A stretch of 64,000 nt of DNA from Byssovorax sp. GTDB lineage: Bacteria > Myxococcota_A > Polyangia > Polyangiales > Polyangiaceae. This document shows positions 12,683 through 62,389 of the stretch, piece after piece (position 1 is the stretch's first letter; each line of letters opens with the position of its first letter). A model generated the notes under the pieces. That model did not search any database. It was given only the letters and a program-made list of their open reading frames with translations, and had not been told where the DNA came from. The translations under genes were made by a program, and so were the position numbers. Location of the stretch: contig JANYGI010000094.1 of assembly GCA_025362495.1 (NCBI GenBank), positions 1-64,000 on the forward strand. Direction: 5' to 3'.

Positions 12683-12841
12683 CAGAGTGGCCGTTTTTCG
12701 CGGCGGGCGGGGCATGGACCCTCCGTTCCGCCGCTGGTTGACGGCCGGATTTTGCAGTGCTAGACGCCGGATAGTCCCAGCATCCGCGGTCGAGTGGGAG
12801 CGAATGTGCGCTTCCCGATTGCGGCGGGGTTCTCCCCACGA

Positions 12842-12863
12842 GCCGGCCTTTTTCTGGGCCGGC
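12842..12863 (+). promoter_or_regulatory. hairpin in the leader of the HARE-HTH gene
   Basis: A perfect 7-bp inverted repeat (GCCGGCC / GGCCGGC) encloses a T-rich 8-base loop 69-90 bp upstream of the ATG at 12932. A smaller hairpin (GGGG TTCT CCCC) lies just upstream. Either may end the previous transcript or structure the leader. The 249-bp gap otherwise shows nothing recognisable. Confidence 0.35.
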
Positions 12864-12931
12864 GCGGGCCGACGGCGACTACGAGGGCGCGCCGGGCGAA
12901 TGAGCCGAGCGCGCCGAAGGACGAAGACAAG

Positions 12932-14692
12932 ATGACGTTCACGGATGCAGCGGCCGAGGTGCTTCGCCTCGTCGGAAAACCGCTTCACTACAAAGAGATC
13001 ACCGACATCGCGATCGAGAAGAACCTCCTGAGTCACGTGGGCAAGAGCCCCGAGGTGACGATGGGCGCGCGGCTCGCCGCCACCCTCAAGAAGGACTCTT
13101 CGGAGAACCCGCTGGTGCGCGTGAAGCCCGGTGTCTTCGCGCTCCGCGAGTGGGACGAGAAGACGATCAAGTCGGGCCTCGAGCCGAAGAAGGCCGGCAA
13201 GAAGGGCCCGTCGCGCAGCGAGGCGCCGCCCCCGAAGGAGCACGCCGCGAAGGACGACGACGACGAGGTGCTGATCGCCGGCGAAGAGCCGGAGGACGAC
13301 GCCGCTCGCGCCGACGACGAGGCGATGGACGACGGCTTCGAGGCGCCGAGCCACGACGACGACGTGGTCGCGCCGGTCGCGGCGGCGCCCGCGGCCCCGC
13401 CGTCGCGCGCGGCGGCTCCTCGCATCGCGCAGGACGACGGCCCGCCCGGCCCCGACGAGGCGATGCGCAACGAGGCCGCCGCCGGCGCGGCCGAGATGTT
13501 CGACGAAGAAGAAGACGACGATCAGCCGATCCTTGGCGGCGACGATCGCGCCGCTGCGGCGGGCGCCGGTGAGGTCGGAGCCGACGGCCGCCGCCGCCGC
13601 CGCCGCCGCCGCCGTGGTCGCAGCAACGGCGAGGCCGTCCCCGCAGGTCCGGGCGCGAGCGCCGGAGCGGTCACCGGCGGTGGCAGCGGCGGTCTCCCGT
13701 CGTACACCGCGACGCCGGTCTCGTTCGAGCCGCGCCGCGAGCGCAACAACGATCGCGGCGCCGACCGCGAGCGCAACGGCGAGCGCGCCCCGGAGCGCAC
13801 GGCCGACCGTGGCGACGATGCGCGCCGCGACGGCGGCGAGAGCCCGCACCGCGGCCCGCAGGTCATCGAGCTCACGGGCGGCGACGGACACGCTCTCGAC
13901 GATCTCGCCGGGCGCGAGCTGTCCGACGCGATCGCCGTCATCCTCTCGACGTTCGATCGCAACGCCGGCGCGGTCTCGCTCCGGCAGATCGCCGAGACGG
14001 CGCAGCGTCGCGGCCGCCTCTCGGGCGACGCGCAGCTCGTGCAGTCGCAGATCGCCGCGGCCGTCCGCGCCGACAACGCGCGCCGCATCGCCTCGGGCTC
14101 GCGCCCCCGCTTCCGCCTCGCCGGTGGCCGCGTCGCGCTCACCGACTGGCTGCTCTCGGGCGACCTCGCCCGCCTCGAGCAGGAGGCCCTCGCCGCCGTC
14201 GAGCGCTACCGCGACGCGGCCCGCCGCGCCTTCGCCCGCAAGCTCGGCGAGCTGCCCGGCCACGCGTTCGTCGAGATCTGCGTGCTCGCGCTCGAGAAGA
14301 TCGGCATCGGTCAGCTCCGCGCGGTTCGCCGCCCCGGCGCTGCCGGCGGCGAGACGCACCTCTCGGGCATCCTCCGCGCTGCGGGGGACGAGGTCCGCGT
14401 GGCCATCGTCATCCGCCGCGATGGCCGCGAGGTCGGCCGCGAGCGCGTGACCGAGCTCCGAGGCTCGCTCCACCACTACGGTCCGGCCACGATCGGCTGG
14501 ATCTTCACCGCCGGGCAGATGCTCTCCGGCGCTCGTGAAGAAGCGGCGATGCCGGGCACCCCGCCGATCGCGCTCCACGACGGCCTCGCCGTCGCGCGCC
14601 TCTGCGAGGACAACGACGTCGCCGTGATCCGCGCTCGGCTCCCGATCGCCATCCCGGACGTCGATCTCCTCGAAGCCCTTCGCGCTTCCTGA
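12932..14692 (+). CDS. HARE-HTH (ASXL/RNAP delta-like) protein with poly-Arg linker and degenerate Mrr-like domain
   Basis: I set the start at the ATG of MTFTDAAAEVLR, where the family begins; the frame is open upstream without homology. Residues 1-75 are a HARE-type winged helix (VLRLVGKPLHYKEITDIA...VKPGVFALREW), as in RNA polymerase delta and eukaryotic ASXL proteins. A long acidic linker then gives way to nine consecutive Arg (220-228) and an Arg/Glu/Asp-rich tract. The C-terminal ~190 residues resemble the Mrr restriction-endonuclease fold (VGRERVTELRGSLHHYG...IFTAGQMLSGAREEA). The catalytic D...QxK is not seen: the strand reads VAIVIRR. I infer a nucleic-acid-binding, chromatin- or transcription-associated protein rather than a nuclease. 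No methylase accompanies it. 586 residues. Confidence 0.8.
   Translation: MTFTDAAAEVLRLVGKPLHYKEITDIAIEKNLLSHVGKSPEVTMGARLAATLKKDSSENPLVRVKPGVFALREWDEKTIKSGLEPKKAGKKGPSRSEAPPPKEHAAKDDDDEVLIAGEEPEDDAARADDEAMDDGFEAPSHDDDVVAPVAAAPAAPPSRAAAPRIAQDDGPPGPDEAMRNEAAAGAAEMFDEEEDDDQPILGGDDRAAAAGAGEVGADGRRRRRRRRRGRSNGEAVPAGPGASAGAVTGGGSGGLPSYTATPVSFEPRRERNNDRGADRERNGERAPERTADRGDDARRDGGESPHRGPQVIELTGGDGHALDDLAGRELSDAIAVILSTFDRNAGAVSLRQIAETAQRRGRLSGDAQLVQSQIAAAVRADNARRIASGSRPRFRLAGGRVALTDWLLSGDLARLEQEALAAVERYRDAARRAFARKLGELPGHAFVEICVLALEKIGIGQLRAVRRPGAAGGETHLSGILRAAGDEVRVAIVIRRDGREVGRERVTELRGSLHHYGPATIGWIFTAGQMLSGAREEAAMPGTPPIALHDGLAVARLCEDNDVAVIRARLPIAIPDVDLLEALRAS
13587..13613 (+). repeat. perfect (GCC)9 trinucleotide tract inside a coding region
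   Basis: Nine uninterrupted GCC units, read in frame mostly as CGC codons, encode Arg220-Arg228 of the HARE-HTH protein. Unit gain or loss would change Arg number without shifting the frame. Confidence 0.9.
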
Positions 14693-14876: not shown

Positions 14877-15890
14877 TCAGCGCTGGCGGAGGCGCGGATC
14901 GAGCACGAGGTCGACGATGTCGAGCGTCAACGTCGCCACGACCACGGCCCCCGCCGAGAACAGCACCGTGCCGAAGATGACCGGGCCGTCACGGTTCAGC
15001 ACCGCGTCGATCGCGAGCTGACCCACGCCTGGCCAGCGGAAAATCCGCTCCGTCACGACGGCGCCGCTCACCATCGTCCCGAGGTCGAGCGCGGCCAGCG
15101 TCGTCAGCGGCCCGAGCGCGTTGCGGAGAGCGTGGACGACGAGCACGCGCGCGGCCGACGCGCCCCGTGCCCGCGCCGCGCGCGCGAAGTCCTGACCGAG
15201 CGCCGAGGCCACCTCCTCGCGCGTCAGGCGAGCGTAGAGCGCGCTCCCGAAGAGGCCGAGCGTCAGCGCGGGCAGCGCCAGCGAGCGCAGGTGATCCACG
15301 CCCGTCGCGCCGTACCCGTCGAAGGGCAACAGGCCGAGCTTGTAGGCGAAAATGTACTGCAAAAGCAGGCCGATCAGGAACGTCGGGGCGCTCGCGCCGA
15401 GCAGCGACGCGCTCATCGCGGCGTCGTCCCAGGCCGTCCCGCGCTTCGCGGCGGCGCTGACGCCGAGCGACACCCCGAGCGCGAGCTGGAGGATCAGCGC
15501 CGCGAACGCCAGCTCGATCGATCGCGGGATCCGGGCGACGAGCAGATCGACCACCGCCTTGCGGTAGTAAAAGCTGTAGCCGAGATCGAGGTGCAGCCCG
15601 GCCCCGAGCGCCGCGCAGCTCCGGTGATCCCGGTCCTTCGCGGACGGGGGTGGTCCGCGGTGGACCAGGTGCGCCCAGTACTTCACGAACCGCACCGACA
15701 CCGATCGATCGAGCCCGTAGATCGCCCGCGCGCGCGTCACGTCGGCCGCGGAGGCCTGGGGGCCGAGCAGAATGCGCGCCGGATCGCCCGGCAGCACCTC
15801 GACGACCAGGAACGAGAGCGACGTCACGCCGAGCACGAGCACGATGGCCCAGGCGAAGCGCCGCGCGAGGAAGCGGAGCGTCGGCTTCAT
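14877..15890 (-). CDS. DppB-type peptide/nickel ABC transporter permease
   Basis: A 337-residue inner-membrane permease starting at the ATG of MKPTLRFLARRFAW, which overlaps the upstream stop by 4 bp. It has the DppB/OppB hallmarks: an N-terminal helix followed by VLPGDPARILLG, about six membrane helices, the EAA cytoplasmic loop (DFARAARARGASAARVLVVHALRN), and the C-terminal block VVTERIFRWPGVGQL. A polar insertion of about 20 residues (RGPPPSAKDRDHRSC) after the first helix is longer than usual. It should pair with the DppC half of the upstream fusion protein to form the membrane pore. No DppD or DppF ATPase gene lies within the window. Confidence 0.93.
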   Translation of the reverse strand: MKPTLRFLARRFAWAIVLVLGVTSLSFLVVEVLPGDPARILLGPQASAADVTRARAIYGLDRSVSVRFVKYWAHLVHRGPPPSAKDRDHRSCAALGAGLHLDLGYSFYYRKAVVDLLVARIPRSIELAFAALILQLALGVSLGVSAAAKRGTAWDDAAMSASLLGASAPTFLIGLLLQYIFAYKLGLLPFDGYGATGVDHLRSLALPALTLGLFGSALYARLTREEVASALGQDFARAARARGASAARVLVVHALRNALGPLTTLAALDLGTMVSGAVVTERIFRWPGVGQLAIDAVLNRDGPVIFGTVLFSAGAVVVATLTLDIVDLVLDPRLRQR

Positions 15891-18481
15891 CGGTGCGCCA
15901 TCGGGTGCGCGAGGGCCTCGCGCGCGGCGATCGGCGCCGGCCGGCGATCGAGCCACACGTCGTTGAAGCGCGCCTGGACCACCGCGTGCTGCACGTACCC
16001 GTGCAGGCACGGCTGCCAGATCTCGAAGCGCCGATTGCCGAAGGTGGGGATCCACGGCGCCTCGTCGCGGACGATGGCCTCGGCGCGCTCGTAGCCCGCC
16101 TTGCGACGCTCGGGATCCGCCTCGCCGTGAGCCTTCGCGAGCACGGCGTCGAGCTCGCCGTTCGAGAAGAACGCCACGTTCTCCGACCCCTCGTCCTGGA
16201 TGGCCGACGTCGCGAGGATCGGCTCGAAGAAGTTCGACGGATCGGGGAAATCGGCGTTCCAGCCGGCCTTTCCCATCACCGCGCCGTGTCGCCGCGTCGT
16301 CTCGGCCTGGAACGTCGCGTACGTCACGAGGTGGAGCCGCAGCCGGATCCCGATCCGCGCGAGCTGCTGCTGCCAGATCTCGCCGGTCTGCTGATCCCAG
16401 GTGTCGGGCACGGCGATGAAGTCGATCGGTGTCGGGTAGCCGCCCTGGCCCGTGGCCTCGTCGAACGCGTAGCCGGCCAGCGTCATCGCCGCGAGCGCGG
16501 CCGCGCGATCGTGGCGGCGCATCGGCGCGCGCGCGGCGTCGTCGGTGGCCCCCGGCACACGGATCGAAGGGGGAACGATGCGATCGGCGGCGACGACGTC
16601 GGGGCGGATCTTCTCGAGCACCGAGGGATCGAGCGCGAACGCGACGGCCCGGCGCAGCGCGCGGTTGTCGAAGGGCGGCACCTCCGTGTTGAGGAACACG
16701 CCGTTCGTCCCCTGCGTCGTCGTCCACCGATGCCGCCCGGCCCACGACGGCGTCGCGCGGTAGATGGCGCCGTCCGACGCCGTGAGATCGTGCGCGTAGT
16801 CGAGCTCGCCCCGTTCGAATTTGTAACGCTGGCTGGTGGAGGGGACGCTCACCTGCCACTCGACGCCGTCGAGGTACGGGCGCCCCGCCTGGTGATACGC
16901 CGCGTGGCGCACGAGCGAGAGGGCGTGATCCGGATCCCACGCGGCGACGCGAAATGGCCCCGCGCCGCAGGGCAGGGCGCTGCTCCGCGAGTCCGCCGAA
17001 GGGCCGGCCGACGCGCACACCGGCGCCGCGAAGGCCATCGTCAGCTTGGCGAGGAACGTCGCGTCGGGGGCGTCGAGATCGATGGCGAGGCGCAGCTCGC
17101 CGAGCACGCGCAGCCCCTCGATCGACTCGGCCTTGCCGTCGTGAAAGGCCTGCGCCCCGCGGATCCCCGTGTAGAGGCTCGCGCCGGGGCTCGGCGTCTT
17201 CGGGTGGAGCAGCCGCTCGATCGATCGCTTCACGTCGCGCGCCTGGAGCTCGGTCCCGTCGTGGAAGCGCAGGCCGGGGCGGAGCTCGAAGGTGTACGAC
17301 GCGCCGTCCGCCGCGGGGATCACCTCGCGCGCGAGATCGGGGACGATGTTGCCCATCGTGTCCCACGTGACCAGGCGAGCGAACATCAGCTCGCTCATCG
17401 AGCGCCACGCCTCCTCGTAGGCGAGCGCCGGATCGAGGCTGCGCACGTTGACCAGCGTCGCCACGTGGAGCACCCCCCCGCGCTGCGGCGCCCCGTCTTC
17501 ACCGGTCATCCCCGCGAGCAGCGGCGGACGGACGCCGTTGGGGATCGCCGCCGAGAGCAGCAGCATCGCCGCGCCCGCGAGGAGCAGATCGACCGGCAGC
17601 CGCGACGCGGGCGGGACCCCGTGGGCGCGCGGATCGAGCGCGTTGCGCAGCCCTTCGCCGACGCGGTTCCACCCGAGCACGGCGAGGAGGATCGCGAACC
17701 CGGGGATGGCGACGAGCGCGAGGCGCGTCCCCAGGTAGCCCTCGCCCTCGTGCAGCATCCGCCCCCACGTCGCGCGCGGCGGCTGGATCCCGACGGTGAG
17801 GTAGCTCAGCACCGCCTCGGCCAGGATCATCTGCGCGACCTGCGTGCCGGCGATCGCCACCAGCGTCCCGCTCAGGTTCGGCAGCACGTGGCGGAGGACG
17901 ATCCGCGGCGTCGGCGCCCCGAGCGCGCGCGCCGCCGTCACGAAGTCGAGCGCGCGGATCTGCAACGTCTGCCCGCGCACCAGGCGCGCCGTCCCGGTCC
18001 AGCCGGTGAGGCCGAGGATCAGCAAGATCGTCCCGACGTCGGCCCGCCCGACCGCGACGCCGATCGCCGTGATGAAGAGCAGGAAGGGCAGCGCCAGCAG
18101 CACGTCGACGAAGCGCATCAGGAGGCCGTCGATCGCCCGGAGGCGCGTGCCCGCCGTCATCCCCGCGGCCACGCCGACGAGCGCGCCCACCGCCGACGTC
18201 ACCGCCGTGGCCAGGACCGCGATCGCGAGCGACACGCGGGCGCCCTGCGCGAGGCGCGAGACCAGATCGCGAAAGAGCGGATCCGTCCCGAGCCAGTGGG
18301 TCGCCGAGGGACCGGGCGGCGCGCCGAAGCGATCACGCGCGACGCTGAAATCGCTGAGATCAGGATCCCACCCCGAGAGCGTCGGCCCCACCGCGGCGAA
18401 GATCGCGAGCGCGGCGACGATGCCGATCCCCACGCGCGCCCGCGGATCACGGAGCATGCGGCGCGCGACGCCCACCTCCAT
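15887..18481 (-). CDS. fused DppC-type permease and periplasmic substrate-binding protein
   Basis: One uninterrupted 864-codon frame joins two normally separate proteins. Residues 1-285 are a DppC/OppC permease: an N-terminal helix, THWLGTDPLFRDL, about five more helices and an EAA loop (DFVTAARALGAPTPRIVLRHVLPN, 179-202). Residues 296-313 are an extra hydrophobic helix (LPVDLLLAGAAMLLLSAA). Residues about 335-860 are a family-5 extracellular solute-binding protein (GGVLHVATL, LRPGLRFHDGTELQARDVKRSIERLL, NTEVPPFDNRALRRAVAFALD). The extra helix looks like the old signal peptide kept as an anchor, which would place the binding domain outside. I saw no ATG, GTG or TTG that would restart the binding protein. 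It overlaps the hydrolase stop (TGATG) and dppB (4 bp). Confidence 0.9.
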   Translation of the reverse strand: MEVGVARRMLRDPRARVGIGIVAALAIFAAVGPTLSGWDPDLSDFSVARDRFGAPPGPSATHWLGTDPLFRDLVSRLAQGARVSLAIAVLATAVTSAVGALVGVAAGMTAGTRLRAIDGLLMRFVDVLLALPFLLFITAIGVAVGRADVGTILLILGLTGWTGTARLVRGQTLQIRALDFVTAARALGAPTPRIVLRHVLPNLSGTLVAIAGTQVAQMILAEAVLSYLTVGIQPPRATWGRMLHEGEGYLGTRLALVAIPGFAILLAVLGWNRVGEGLRNALDPRAHGVPPASRLPVDLLLAGAAMLLLSAAIPNGVRPPLLAGMTGEDGAPQRGGVLHVATLVNVRSLDPALAYEEAWRSMSELMFARLVTWDTMGNIVPDLAREVIPAADGASYTFELRPGLRFHDGTELQARDVKRSIERLLHPKTPSPGASLYTGIRGAQAFHDGKAESIEGLRVLGELRLAIDLDAPDATFLAKLTMAFAAPVCASAGPSADSRSSALPCGAGPFRVAAWDPDHALSLVRHAAYHQAGRPYLDGVEWQVSVPSTSQRYKFERGELDYAHDLTASDGAIYRATPSWAGRHRWTTTQGTNGVFLNTEVPPFDNRALRRAVAFALDPSVLEKIRPDVVAADRIVPPSIRVPGATDDAARAPMRRHDRAAALAAMTLAGYAFDEATGQGGYPTPIDFIAVPDTWDQQTGEIWQQQLARIGIRLRLHLVTYATFQAETTRRHGAVMGKAGWNADFPDPSNFFEPILATSAIQDEGSENVAFFSNGELDAVLAKAHGEADPERRKAGYERAEAIVRDEAPWIPTFGNRRFEIWQPCLHGYVQHAVVQARFNDVWLDRRPAPIAAREALAHPMAHR

Positions 18482-19341
18482 CAGCGCTTGCCTTCCAGGA
18501 ACTCGACGAGCAGCGCGAGGAGCTCGCGGGGCTTTTCCTGGTGGGGCGAGTGGCCCGTGTCCATGATCTCCAGCTTGGCGTGCGGCAGCTCGCGGGCGAG
18601 GCGATTGGCGCTGGCGGCCGGGTAGAGCACGTCGTCGCGGCCCCAGATCACCAGCGTTTCGGCGGTGATCCGGCTGATGCGCGCGACGACCGGTCGCGTG
18701 TCGAGGACGGCGCGCATCACCGCGTAGGCGCTTTCGCGGGACGACGGGCTGTTGAAACAATCGAAGTGCCAGTCGATGCGCTCGAGCGGAACGTCGGCGC
18801 CGGGGCGCAGCAGCTCCTCGCGAAAATAACTTCGAAAGAGCGAGCGCCCGAGCAGCTGCTTGAAGATGAGGCCGCCCACGATCGGCGCGAGCGCGACGCG
18901 GGCGCGAAAGCTCGGTGGCACCGGGTACGCGAGCGGATCTTCGAGCACGAGGCGCTGGACGAGCTCGGGGTGCGTCGCCGCGAGCGTCATGGCGATCGCG
19001 CCGCCCATGGCGTGGCCCACGACCGAGGCTCGACCGACGCCGAAGGCCGCGATCAGATCGGCGATGGCCTCGGCGTGCGACTCGATCCCGTAGCTGTAGC
19101 GCGCCGGGTTCGGCTTCTCGCTCTCGCCGAATCCAGGCAAATCCGGGGCGATCACGTGAAATCGCTCGGCGAGATCATCGATGAGCTCGTCCCAGGTGCG
19201 CCGGCTTTCCAGGAAGCCGTGGATCAGCACCAGGGCGGGCGCGTCCTCGCGGCCCGCCTCGAGCACGCGGGTGCGAACTCCGCGCGCCGTGACGTCCCGG
19301 ATCTCGCGCTCGAACGGGCCGGTCTCCGCGTTGTTGGCCAT
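18481..19341 (-). CDS. alpha/beta-hydrolase fold protein with Ala in place of the nucleophile
   Basis: A 286-residue cytoplasmic alpha/beta-hydrolase: HGFLESRRTWDEL (oxyanion region, 41-53), DLPGFGESEKP, the nucleophile elbow GHAMGG (109-114), acid DD (236-237 in VIWGRDDVLYP), and His264 (TGHSPHQEKP). The elbow normally reads GHSMGG. The codon here is GCC, so residue 111 is Ala and the catalytic Ser is missing, while the acid and His remain. It may be a non-catalytic binding protein or use a different mechanism. It is the first gene of a coupled minus-strand operon with the peptide transporter, so a role with the imported peptide or amide is conceivable (inference). Confidence 0.88.
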   Translation of the reverse strand: MANNAETGPFEREIRDVTARGVRTRVLEAGREDAPALVLIHGFLESRRTWDELIDDLAERFHVIAPDLPGFGESEKPNPARYSYGIESHAEAIADLIAAFGVGRASVVGHAMGGAIAMTLAATHPELVQRLVLEDPLAYPVPPSFRARVALAPIVGGLIFKQLLGRSLFRSYFREELLRPGADVPLERIDWHFDCFNSPSSRESAYAVMRAVLDTRPVVARISRITAETLVIWGRDDVLYPAASANRLARELPHAKLEIMDTGHSPHQEKPRELLALLVEFLEGKR

Positions 19342-57484: not shown

Positions 57485-60400
57485 GTGGGAACCGCCGAGC
57501 CTCCGCGGGCGCCGAGCGAGCGCGACCTCGACGCGATCTTCGCGGCTGCGCTCGAGTCCGCGCGCGTGCCGCGCGCCACCTACCGCGTGCAGCTCCAGCC
57601 GGCGTTCGGCTTCGAGGCGGCGGCCGAGCTCGTCGACTACCTCGACACGCTCGGCATCAGCGATCTCTACACGTCGCCGTTCTTCAAGGCCGTGTCGGGC
57701 AGCCTCCACGGCTACGATCTCGTCGATCCCAACCGCCTCAACCCGGAGCTCGGATCGCCCGAGGCGTTCGACGATCTCACGCGCCGGCTCCACGCGCGCG
57801 GGATGGGGCTCTTGCTCGACTTCGTGCCCAACCATATGGGCGTCGCCCAGGGCGCGAACGCCTACTGGACCGACGTGCTCGAGAACGGGCCGAGCTCGAT
57901 CCACGCGCCGATGTTCGACATCGACTGGGCGCCGCTGAAGAGCGAGCTCGCGCGCAAGGTGCTGCTCCCGGTGCTCGACGCGCCCTTCGGCAAGGCGCTC
58001 GAGCGCGGCGATCTCCGCCCCGCGTTCGAGGACGGCGCGTTCGTCGTCGAGCTGCACGGCGCGAAATTGCCCCTGGATCCTCGGTCGTTTCTGCTGATCC
58101 TCGGCCCGCTCTTGCCGGGCCTCATCGCCGAGCTCGGCGAGGAGAGCGACGCGGTGCTCGAGCTCCGGAGCGTCATCACGGGCCTCGCGCACCTGCCCGC
58201 GGTCGACGACACGCGCCGCGACAAGAGCGCCGAGCGCCGGCGCGAGAAGGAGATCTTGAAGCGCCGCCTCGCCGCGCTGGCCGCGGGCTCGCCCGCCGTG
58301 GAGGCCGCGGTGAGCGCGCGGATGGTCGCGCTGGCCGGAAAACAAGGCGATCCGCGCAGCTTCGACGAGCTCGAGGCGCTGCTCGACAAGCAGGCGTACC
58401 GCCTCGGCTACTTCCGCGTCGCGGCCGAGGAGATCAACTACCGCCGCTTCTTCGACGTCAACGAGCTGGTGGCGATCCGCGTGGAGAACCCGGCGGTCTT
58501 CGCCGAGACGCACCGCCTCCTGTTCGAGCTCCTCGCGGCGGGGACGGTGACCGGCCTCCGCGTCGATCACCCCGACGGGCTCTGGGAGCCTTCACGCTAT
58601 TTTTCTCGGGTCCAGCGCGGGGTGTTCCTCGATCGCGCCCGGCTCGCCGACGCCGATCCCGCGCTGCTCGAGCGGCTGGCCGAGCGCTACGATCGCCAGG
58701 CCGCCGAGAGGCCGCTCCGGCCGCTCTACATCGTGGCGGAGAAGATCCTCGCGCGCGGCGAGGAGCTGCCGGCGGACTGGGCGATCGACGGGACGAGCGG
58801 CTACGACGTCGCGGCGCTGCTCGGCGGCGTCTTCGTCGACCGGTCGACCGAGCGCGAGATGACGCGGATCTACGAGCACTTCGTCGCGTCGCGCCCCGAG
58901 CTCTCGGCGCTGATCCACGACGGCAAGCGGCTGATCCTCGCGACGGCGCTCGCGGGCGAGCTCAACGTTCTTGCGCACGCGCTGAACCGTCTGTCGGAGC
59001 GCAACCGGCACACGCGCGACTTCACGCTGGGCACGCTCACGACGGCGCTGCGCGAGGTCTGCTCGTGCTTCCCCGTGTACCGAACCTACGTGGGTGAAGA
59101 GACGACCGAGCTCGCGCCCGGGGACCGCGCGGCGATCGGCGTGGCGATCCGCCTCGCGCGGCGGCGCGATCCCACGACCGACGCGTCGGTCTACGATTTC
59201 GTGCGATCGGTCCTCCTGCGCGAGCTGCCCGACGCCATCGCCGAGGCCGATCGCCGGCTGTTCTTCCCCTTCGTGATGAAGCTCCAGCAGCTCACGTCGG
59301 CGGTGATGGCCAAGGGCGTCGAGGACACGGCGTTCTACGCGTACAACCGCCTCGTGTCGCTCAACGAGGTCGGCGGCGAGCCCGATCGCTTCGGCGTCGA
59401 TCCCTCCGAGCTGCACCGGGAGAACCTCGATCGTCTCGCGCGGTGGCCGCGATCGCTGCTGACGACGTCGACGCACGACACCAAGCGGAGCGAGGACGTG
59501 CGCGCGCGGATCAGCGTGCTCTCGGAGATCCCCGGGGCGTGGGAGGGTGCGCTCCTTTCGATGGCGCGCGCGGCGCGGCCGTTCAAGACCGCGCGCGACG
59601 GCCCGGCGGCGCCCGACGCCAACGAGGAGATCCTGCTCTACCAGACGCTGCTGGGGACCTGGCCGGACGGCCTGGTGCGCGCGCCCGCGGCCTACGTCGA
59701 GCGCATCGCCGCGTACCTCCGCAAGGCGACCAAGGAGGCCAAGATCAACACCGCGTGGGTCGACGCGGATCCGGCTTACGACGCGGCCGTCGAGCGCTTC
59801 GTCCGCGGGATCCTCGGCGACGGCGAGCGCGCCGAGGCCTTCCGCGAGGCGCTGCTCCCGCTGGCGCGCAAGGTGGCGTTCTTCGGCCGGTGGAGCTCGC
59901 TCGCGCAGCTGGTGCTCAAGCTCGGCTCGCCGGGCGTCCCGGATTTCTACCAGGGGAACGAGCTCTGGGACGACAGCCTCGTCGATCCCGACAACCGGCG
60001 CCTCGTGGACTTCGCGTCGCGTCGGCGGGCGCTCGACGAGCTCGTCGCGCGGCGCGACGAGGGCGTCACGCTGGCGCGCGAGCTCGGCCGCGAGGCCGCG
60101 GACGGGCGGATCAAGCTCTTCGTGACCTGGGTCGGACTCCAGGTGCGTCGACGCTTCCCGGAGGCCTTCGCGGAGCGCAGCGGCTACGTGCCGATCCACG
60201 CCGAGGGCGAGGCGCGCGATCACGTCGTCGCGTTCGCGCGCACGTCGGGCGAGACGGTGATCCTGTTCGTGGTCGCTCGCCTCGTCGCGCGGCGCCTCGG
60301 CGGCCATGTCGCGCCGCCGACCGGAGCGGTCTGGGCCGACACGCACCTCGTCCTGCCGCCGCAGCTCTCGCCCGCCCGCTACCGCGACGGGTTCACGGGC

Positions 60401-60514
60401 GTGGTGCTCGAGGTCGACGACGGCGACGGATCGGCCACGATCCCGCTCGATCGCGCTCTCGCCGAGCTCCCTTTCGCGCTCCTGATCGGTGAGCCGCCGG
60501 GGCCTGCACCCTGA
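57485..60514 (+). CDS. treY: malto-oligosyltrehalose synthase
   Basis: A 1009-residue GH13 enzyme from the GTG at 57485, the only in-frame start I found before the family's first block (PRATYRVQLQPAFGFEAAAELVDYL). It rearranges the reducing-end alpha-1,4 bond of maltodextrins to alpha,alpha-1,1. Motifs: LLDFVPNHMGV, the nucleophile in LRVDHPDGLWEPSRYF, Glu in IVAEKIL, GTSGYDV, and the third Asp in STHDTKRSEDVRAR; the C terminus has SPGVPDFYQGNELWD. The length exceeds the ~700-800 residues of many TreY proteins but matches long proteobacterial ones. TreZ follows 33 bp downstream. Confidence 0.95.
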   Translation: MGTAEPPRAPSERDLDAIFAAALESARVPRATYRVQLQPAFGFEAAAELVDYLDTLGISDLYTSPFFKAVSGSLHGYDLVDPNRLNPELGSPEAFDDLTRRLHARGMGLLLDFVPNHMGVAQGANAYWTDVLENGPSSIHAPMFDIDWAPLKSELARKVLLPVLDAPFGKALERGDLRPAFEDGAFVVELHGAKLPLDPRSFLLILGPLLPGLIAELGEESDAVLELRSVITGLAHLPAVDDTRRDKSAERRREKEILKRRLAALAAGSPAVEAAVSARMVALAGKQGDPRSFDELEALLDKQAYRLGYFRVAAEEINYRRFFDVNELVAIRVENPAVFAETHRLLFELLAAGTVTGLRVDHPDGLWEPSRYFSRVQRGVFLDRARLADADPALLERLAERYDRQAAERPLRPLYIVAEKILARGEELPADWAIDGTSGYDVAALLGGVFVDRSTEREMTRIYEHFVASRPELSALIHDGKRLILATALAGELNVLAHALNRLSERNRHTRDFTLGTLTTALREVCSCFPVYRTYVGEETTELAPGDRAAIGVAIRLARRRDPTTDASVYDFVRSVLLRELPDAIAEADRRLFFPFVMKLQQLTSAVMAKGVEDTAFYAYNRLVSLNEVGGEPDRFGVDPSELHRENLDRLARWPRSLLTTSTHDTKRSEDVRARISVLSEIPGAWEGALLSMARAARPFKTARDGPAAPDANEEILLYQTLLGTWPDGLVRAPAAYVERIAAYLRKATKEAKINTAWVDADPAYDAAVERFVRGILGDGERAEAFREALLPLARKVAFFGRWSSLAQLVLKLGSPGVPDFYQGNELWDDSLVDPDNRRLVDFASRRRALDELVARRDEGVTLARELGREAADGRIKLFVTWVGLQVRRRFPEAFAERSGYVPIHAEGEARDHVVAFARTSGETVILFVVARLVARRLGGHVAPPTGAVWADTHLVLPPQLSPARYRDGFTGVVLEVDDGDGSATIPLDRALAELPFALLIGEPPGPAP

Positions 60515-60547
60515 GAGACGCTGACGAAACCGTTGGAGGTCCAACGA

Positions 60548-62389
<1,842 letters not shown>

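Follow-up and report, generated by a model that had tools for sequence, protein, structure and literature searches.

A DppC-type permease fused in frame to a family-5 substrate-binding protein in a Dpp/Opp-type ABC importer

In the 64,000-nt stretch of Byssovorax sp. DNA analysed here (the window), the DppC permease and the family-5 substrate-binding protein (SBP) of a Dpp/Opp-type ABC importer are predicted from the sequence to be a single polypeptide. The fused gene, dppC::SBP (15887..18481, minus strand), encodes 864 amino acids in a single open frame, which runs uninterrupted from an ATG at 18481 to a stop at 15887 when both strands are translated and is matched by full-length homologues. 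An initial annotation of this DNA had described the continuous frame and the domain order, and both hold: there are 864 codons on the minus strand, Pfam recognizes DppC and then a family-5 SBP, and the coordinates given were correct. We consider it likely that the product forms part of a peptide importer with one receptor, permanently attached to DppC, in a layout like that of OpuA, with an unlinked DppD/DppF pair as the probable motor.

Pfam assigned OppC_N to residues 6–48, BPD_transp_1 to residues 103–286 and SBP_bac_5 to residues 378–760 (E 1e-62), all above cut-off. The permease features tested, OppC_N and BPD_transp_1, are thus both present, as in a DppC-type protein, and SBP_bac_5 was the sole binding-protein family that Pfam found in the fusion; NCBIfam recovered the same two halves, with neither reaching an equivalog cut-off. 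These matches and the alignment to E. coli DppC define a complete DppC/OppC-type permease domain (residues 1–284; 17630..18481, minus strand), and Pfam, a fold match and the alignment around the D436 position define a complete family-5 substrate-binding domain (residues 335–848; 15938..17479, minus strand). The segment between them starts where E. coli DppC ends in the alignment, and it carries a seventh hydrophobic helix, putatively an anchor, which hydropathy and alignments place at residues 297–313 (17543..17593, minus strand). The single extra helix of the initial annotation is visible both by hydropathy (residues 295–313, mean 2.1) and in an AlphaFold2 model (residues 297–310). This model, computed with an alignment of 75 window and locus proteins, has a mean pLDDT of 93.1 and a pTM of 0.90; DppC and the SBP are modelled very well, helix 297–310 well, and residues 281–300 and 321–330 less so.

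E. coli DppC is a protein of six transmembrane helices (PMC12136057), and the topology proposed for the fusion proved self-consistent, with six DppC helices, a seventh running from inside to outside, and the receptor outside. In the mechanism we propose, DppC would cross the membrane six times and end in the cytoplasm, a short positive segment and the seventh helix would bring the chain out of the cell, and a linker of about 20 residues would keep the receptor beside the pore formed by DppC and DppB. As DppB carries no receptor, each transporter would have one. Tethering in vivo, this stoichiometry, the ATPase partner and the cargo are all features that we infer from sequence.

By fold, the SBP domain matches DppE (Z 37.1, 2.5 Å over 489 residues) and MppA (Z 37.0), in VIA-align rows that cover residues 329–846 only and leave out the helix and the permease; the closest structure by sequence is 8upi. 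In E. coli DppA, D436 holds the amino group of the peptide and R383 its carboxyl group (PMC12136057). The amino-clamp Asp is conserved in 55/55 sequences, and alignment identifies Asp744 of the fusion as its equivalent. In every fused row the R383 position reads I, V or L, in an alignment that is distant at that site, and the DppB scoop residues E41 and R42 are not conserved here. Since R383 is not conserved, a dipeptide cargo, or strict dipeptide specificity, is unsupported, and the transporter probably takes up a short peptide or some other molecule that bears a free amino group.

Operon context and candidate ATPase

Three genes on the minus strand form the operon, and the fusion lies between the other two. 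It is preceded by an alpha/beta-hydrolase-fold gene (18481..19341, minus strand), assigned by Pfam and operon conservation, and followed by dppB (14877..15890, minus strand), which Pfam identifies as a second permease, of DppB type. The genes are tightly packed: hydrolase and fusion overlap as TGATG, and the ATG of dppB overlaps the stop of the fusion by 4 nt (ATGA), an overlap that holds a start codon in 28/28 fused loci. No ABC ATPase gene is present in the three-gene operon.

The operon hydrolase lacks the catalytic nucleophile Ser, with Ala111 (19009–19011, minus strand) changing the usual GHSMGG to GHAMGG. Among 48 operon homologues (L036–L117), the nucleophile column holds Ala in 15, Gly in 26 and Ser in 7, and the triad Asp and His are mostly kept; the outgroup families f6 and f8 retain the Ser. 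Judged by these residues, the hydrolase is a predicted pseudo-enzyme, conserved and travelling with the peptide transporter. Convergent with the operon is a plus-strand gene (12794–14692) whose product has a HARE-HTH domain at its N terminus and an Mrr-type restriction endonuclease domain at its C terminus, separated by a long stretch matching no family.

The genome from which the window comes is a 10.8-Mb draft in 240 contigs, and the oligo_HPY signature of DppD/DppF occurs in it at four places. Two of these are on contig C213, where a receptor and two permeases are encoded next to them. Contig C10 carries an orphan DppD/DppF pair with oligo_HPY (57876–60487, L104), with no permease or receptor match adjoining. 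This unlinked C10 pair is most likely what would supply ATP hydrolysis to the fused transporter. A DppF orthologue (53%–76% identity) was found away from the operon in 24/24 operon-bearing genomes examined, and in many of them it is the only close one. The pairing of DppDF and operon is not exclusive, as the complete genome G031 keeps the orphan DppF and gave no match to the operon; several operon-negative genomes also keep a DppF of similar identity, in an operon search that scored few candidates per genome.

Two further receptor genes were noted in this genome. The receptor of the C213 dpp operon (64258–66000; L003, L004) occupies one 783-codon frame, in which the family match is broken into two pieces about 550 bases apart; the break, at profile position 61, points to a large insertion. 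Contig C77 encodes another family-5 SBP (59704–61134, L001), a possible orphan receptor on a contig without a BPD_transp_1 match.

Fused and split relatives and the origin of the fusion

A search for full-length homologues spanning both domains, the check that the initial annotation had suggested, recovered the same open fusion from 27 further genomes. Related genomes contain 24 full-length fusions, that of the window included, and a wider search of the order added four, giving a set of 28, of which 26 are in the window's own family (f1) and two in another family (f3). The fused sequences are 36%–63% identical to the window protein, and four of the fusion-bearing genomes (G038, G086, G077 and G181) are single-contig. 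In genome G044, too, the genes are fused as far as the contig extends. Beyond the order, none of the matches in 377 genomes sampled from the phylum reached E 1e-75; a protein scan of genome contigs gave one distant locus, and all 20 matches listed in a plasmid search were joined from two or three pieces and were separate genes where annotated.

In split relatives of the same order, dppC and the SBP gene stand side by side in the same operon and often overlap, and the split f1, f6 and f8 relatives have the order hydrolase-dppC-SBP-dppB, as in the fused operon. At 13 of the 27 split loci the SBP has a +1-frame ATG 26 bases upstream of the end of the dppC stop codon, and at the split locus of G035 the frames of the two genes agree. 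Fusing the genes would take no more than a small indel or, with the frames in agreement as in G035, the loss of a stop, and the exact event is one that we infer.

To place the fusions relative to these split loci, we built a quick tree from concatenated DppC, SBP and DppB (1154 columns, with most of the junction omitted). The 26 f1 fusions form one clade (SH-aLRT 100), and the two f3 fusions fall elsewhere, with split sister lines. Forcing all fusions into one common clade costs 458 log units (AU p 1.3e-6), and we rejected that arrangement. The tree indicates two independent gains of the fusion and no loss or reversal; having arisen twice, the fusion has been retained in the lineage. Because the outgroups are split, the split arrangement would have come first. 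We propose that dppC and the adjacent SBP gene, which in relatives share a few bases, were joined in frame, and that in the main (f1) fusion the lipoprotein signal peptide of the SBP lost its Cys and so would have become an uncleaved membrane anchor. The split SBPs of f3 and f5 (L075 in G119 and L107 in G146) have a long hydrophobic N-terminal stretch and no lipobox Cys, so that helix anchoring of the receptor may predate the f3 fusion.

The junction and alternative readings

Comparison of the fused and split proteins supports a change at the junction from a lipoprotein signal to a predicted transmembrane-type helix. A lipobox-type Cys closes the hydrophobic stretch in 25/25 split SBPs of f1, f6 and f8, and a Cys at the helix end is found in 0/28 fused proteins, three of which have a Cys elsewhere within the helix. 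The median 19-residue hydropathy is 2.09 for the fused helices versus 1.55 for the split signals. Ahead of the helix, 27/28 fusions have a net positive segment, which by the positive-inside rule puts the beginning of the helix on the cytoplasmic side. Asp298 (17588–17590, minus strand), at the start of the seventh helix, is invariant in alignments of the fused rows (28/28, across both fusions) and is the sole invariant residue between positions 279 and 350; it is also present in G044. Over the helix and linker, dN/dS is 0.26–0.53 (two genera), indicating that both are under purifying selection.

A more elaborate arrangement, which we put forward only tentatively, is that on two occasions a peptide-family importer replaced its separate receptor by one tethered to one half of the pore, that the anchor helix with its Asp298 is a working part coupling the receptor to DppC, and that the nucleophile-less hydrolase is a further non-catalytic partner.

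The main rival, which we consider unlikely, is a polyprotein, in which signal peptidase I would cut after the seventh helix and free a soluble periplasmic SBP. Such processing has a precedent in the cytochrome b/c1 precursor (fbcH) of Bradyrhizobium. The f1 helix occupies the former place of the signal peptide, and its uninterrupted hydrophobic run is just 14–15 residues in most f1 fusions, a length that is low for a membrane anchor and that would suit a signal peptide; the window protein also has one plausible, if permissive, cleavage site, SAA↓IP. However, strict AxA sites occur in 8/28 fusions, against 8.2 expected by shuffling, so that there is no sign of a selected signal-peptidase site; the six fusions of genus g14 have none, and no cleavage site is conserved in the 28 fused sequences. 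The split f1 relatives are, moreover, lipoprotein-like and would be cut by a different peptidase, one that requires the lost Cys, and the higher hydropathy of the fused helices likewise argues against a cleaved signal.

A separate SBP could also arise alongside the fusion by an internal translation restart, which we regard as very unlikely. Here the initial annotation, which saw no ATG, GTG or TTG at the junction, needs correcting: the window protein has in-frame ATG codons at residues 306 (17566) and 325 (17509) and GTG codons at residues 337 (17473) and 340 (17464), and both f3 fusions have an ATG at residue 300. In the window, though, these codons fall mid-helix or past the helix, none is conserved across the fusions, and no in-frame start codon occurs between the end of DppC and the helix. 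In any one column of the junction, at most 13/28 fusions have a start codon, and the commonest such column (residue 333) is past the helix, which means that a protein begun there could not be exported. The +1-frame SBP ATG of 13 split relatives is absent from the window, which reads AACGCG, and from most fusions, which read GACGCG.

We give as little credence to the DppB/DppC-SBP pair being a peptide sensor, working with the nucleophile-less hydrolase, and not a pump. The operon without an ATPase would fit a sensor, as would the loss of the catalytic Ser from the partner hydrolase in most members, but the permease domains score well above the Pfam cut-off, an orphan DppD/DppF pair is encoded in the same genome, and a DppF orthologue is present in every operon-bearing genome examined. 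Lastly, a missed stop or frameshift at 17550–17650, conceivable in a 240-contig draft, is ruled out as a sequencing or assembly artefact by the same continuous frame in 27 other genomes, several of them single-contig, and by purifying selection on the junction. The initial annotation had named a combination that would speak against its reading, namely exclusively split homologues plus a stop or frameshift where the two domains meet; we did not find it.

Comparison with known importers and significance

Receptors fused to translocators are known in other ABC importer families. The closest parallel in layout to the importer we propose, with its receptor tethered to DppC, is OpuA, the glycine betaine importer of Lactococcus lactis, in which permease, anchoring helix, 11-residue linker and C-terminal receptor form one chain (PMC11065425); the fusion has the same order of permease, predicted anchoring helix, short linker and SBP. 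OpuA, however, has two identical translocator chains and thus two receptors, whereas here DppC alone of the DppB/DppC pair carries one. OpuA also belongs to the osmoprotectant family and comes from a Gram-positive bacterium, whereas the fused receptor is of family 5 and the ATPases are unlinked. By Pfam, an OpuAC-type (glycine-betaine) receptor is absent from the fusion, which is OpuA-like in layout and not a member of that family. In the glutamine/glutamate importer GlnPQ, receptor domains are covalently joined to the transmembrane domain (PMC8025302), the kind of attachment predicted for the fusion. GlnPQ differs in having two tandem receptor domains, in its transporter family and in its Gram-positive origin. 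Its receptors are in the N-terminal position.

Relative to E. coli DppABCDF, the system has homologous DppC, DppB and SBP and the amino-clamp Asp of DppA; DppD/DppF-type ATPases, its candidate partners, are encoded elsewhere in the genome. In E. coli, DppA exists as a protein of its own and the five genes are neighbours (PMC12136057), whereas here the SBP is fused and dppDF lie elsewhere, and neither R383 of DppA nor E41/R42 of DppB is conserved in the fused operon. In the open-licence literature, which we covered in part, we found no report of such a fusion in the Dpp/Opp family.

Receptors are usually made in excess over translocators (PMC9045158), and several of them can serve a single Dpp translocator, as five do in Pseudomonas aeruginosa (PMC4206461). 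Fusing the receptor would fix the receptor:translocator ratio at one to one and dedicate the pore to one specificity. The junction suggests a concrete route to this state, from a lipoprotein signal peptide to a transmembrane anchor. With close relatives that keep a split, lipid-anchored form of the operon and a fusion that arose twice, the lineage is a natural experiment in which the effects of tethering on a peptide importer can be studied. If the more elaborate arrangement outlined above is true, it would be a natural one-receptor-per-transporter counterpart, in a Gram-negative lineage, to the two-receptor OpuA.
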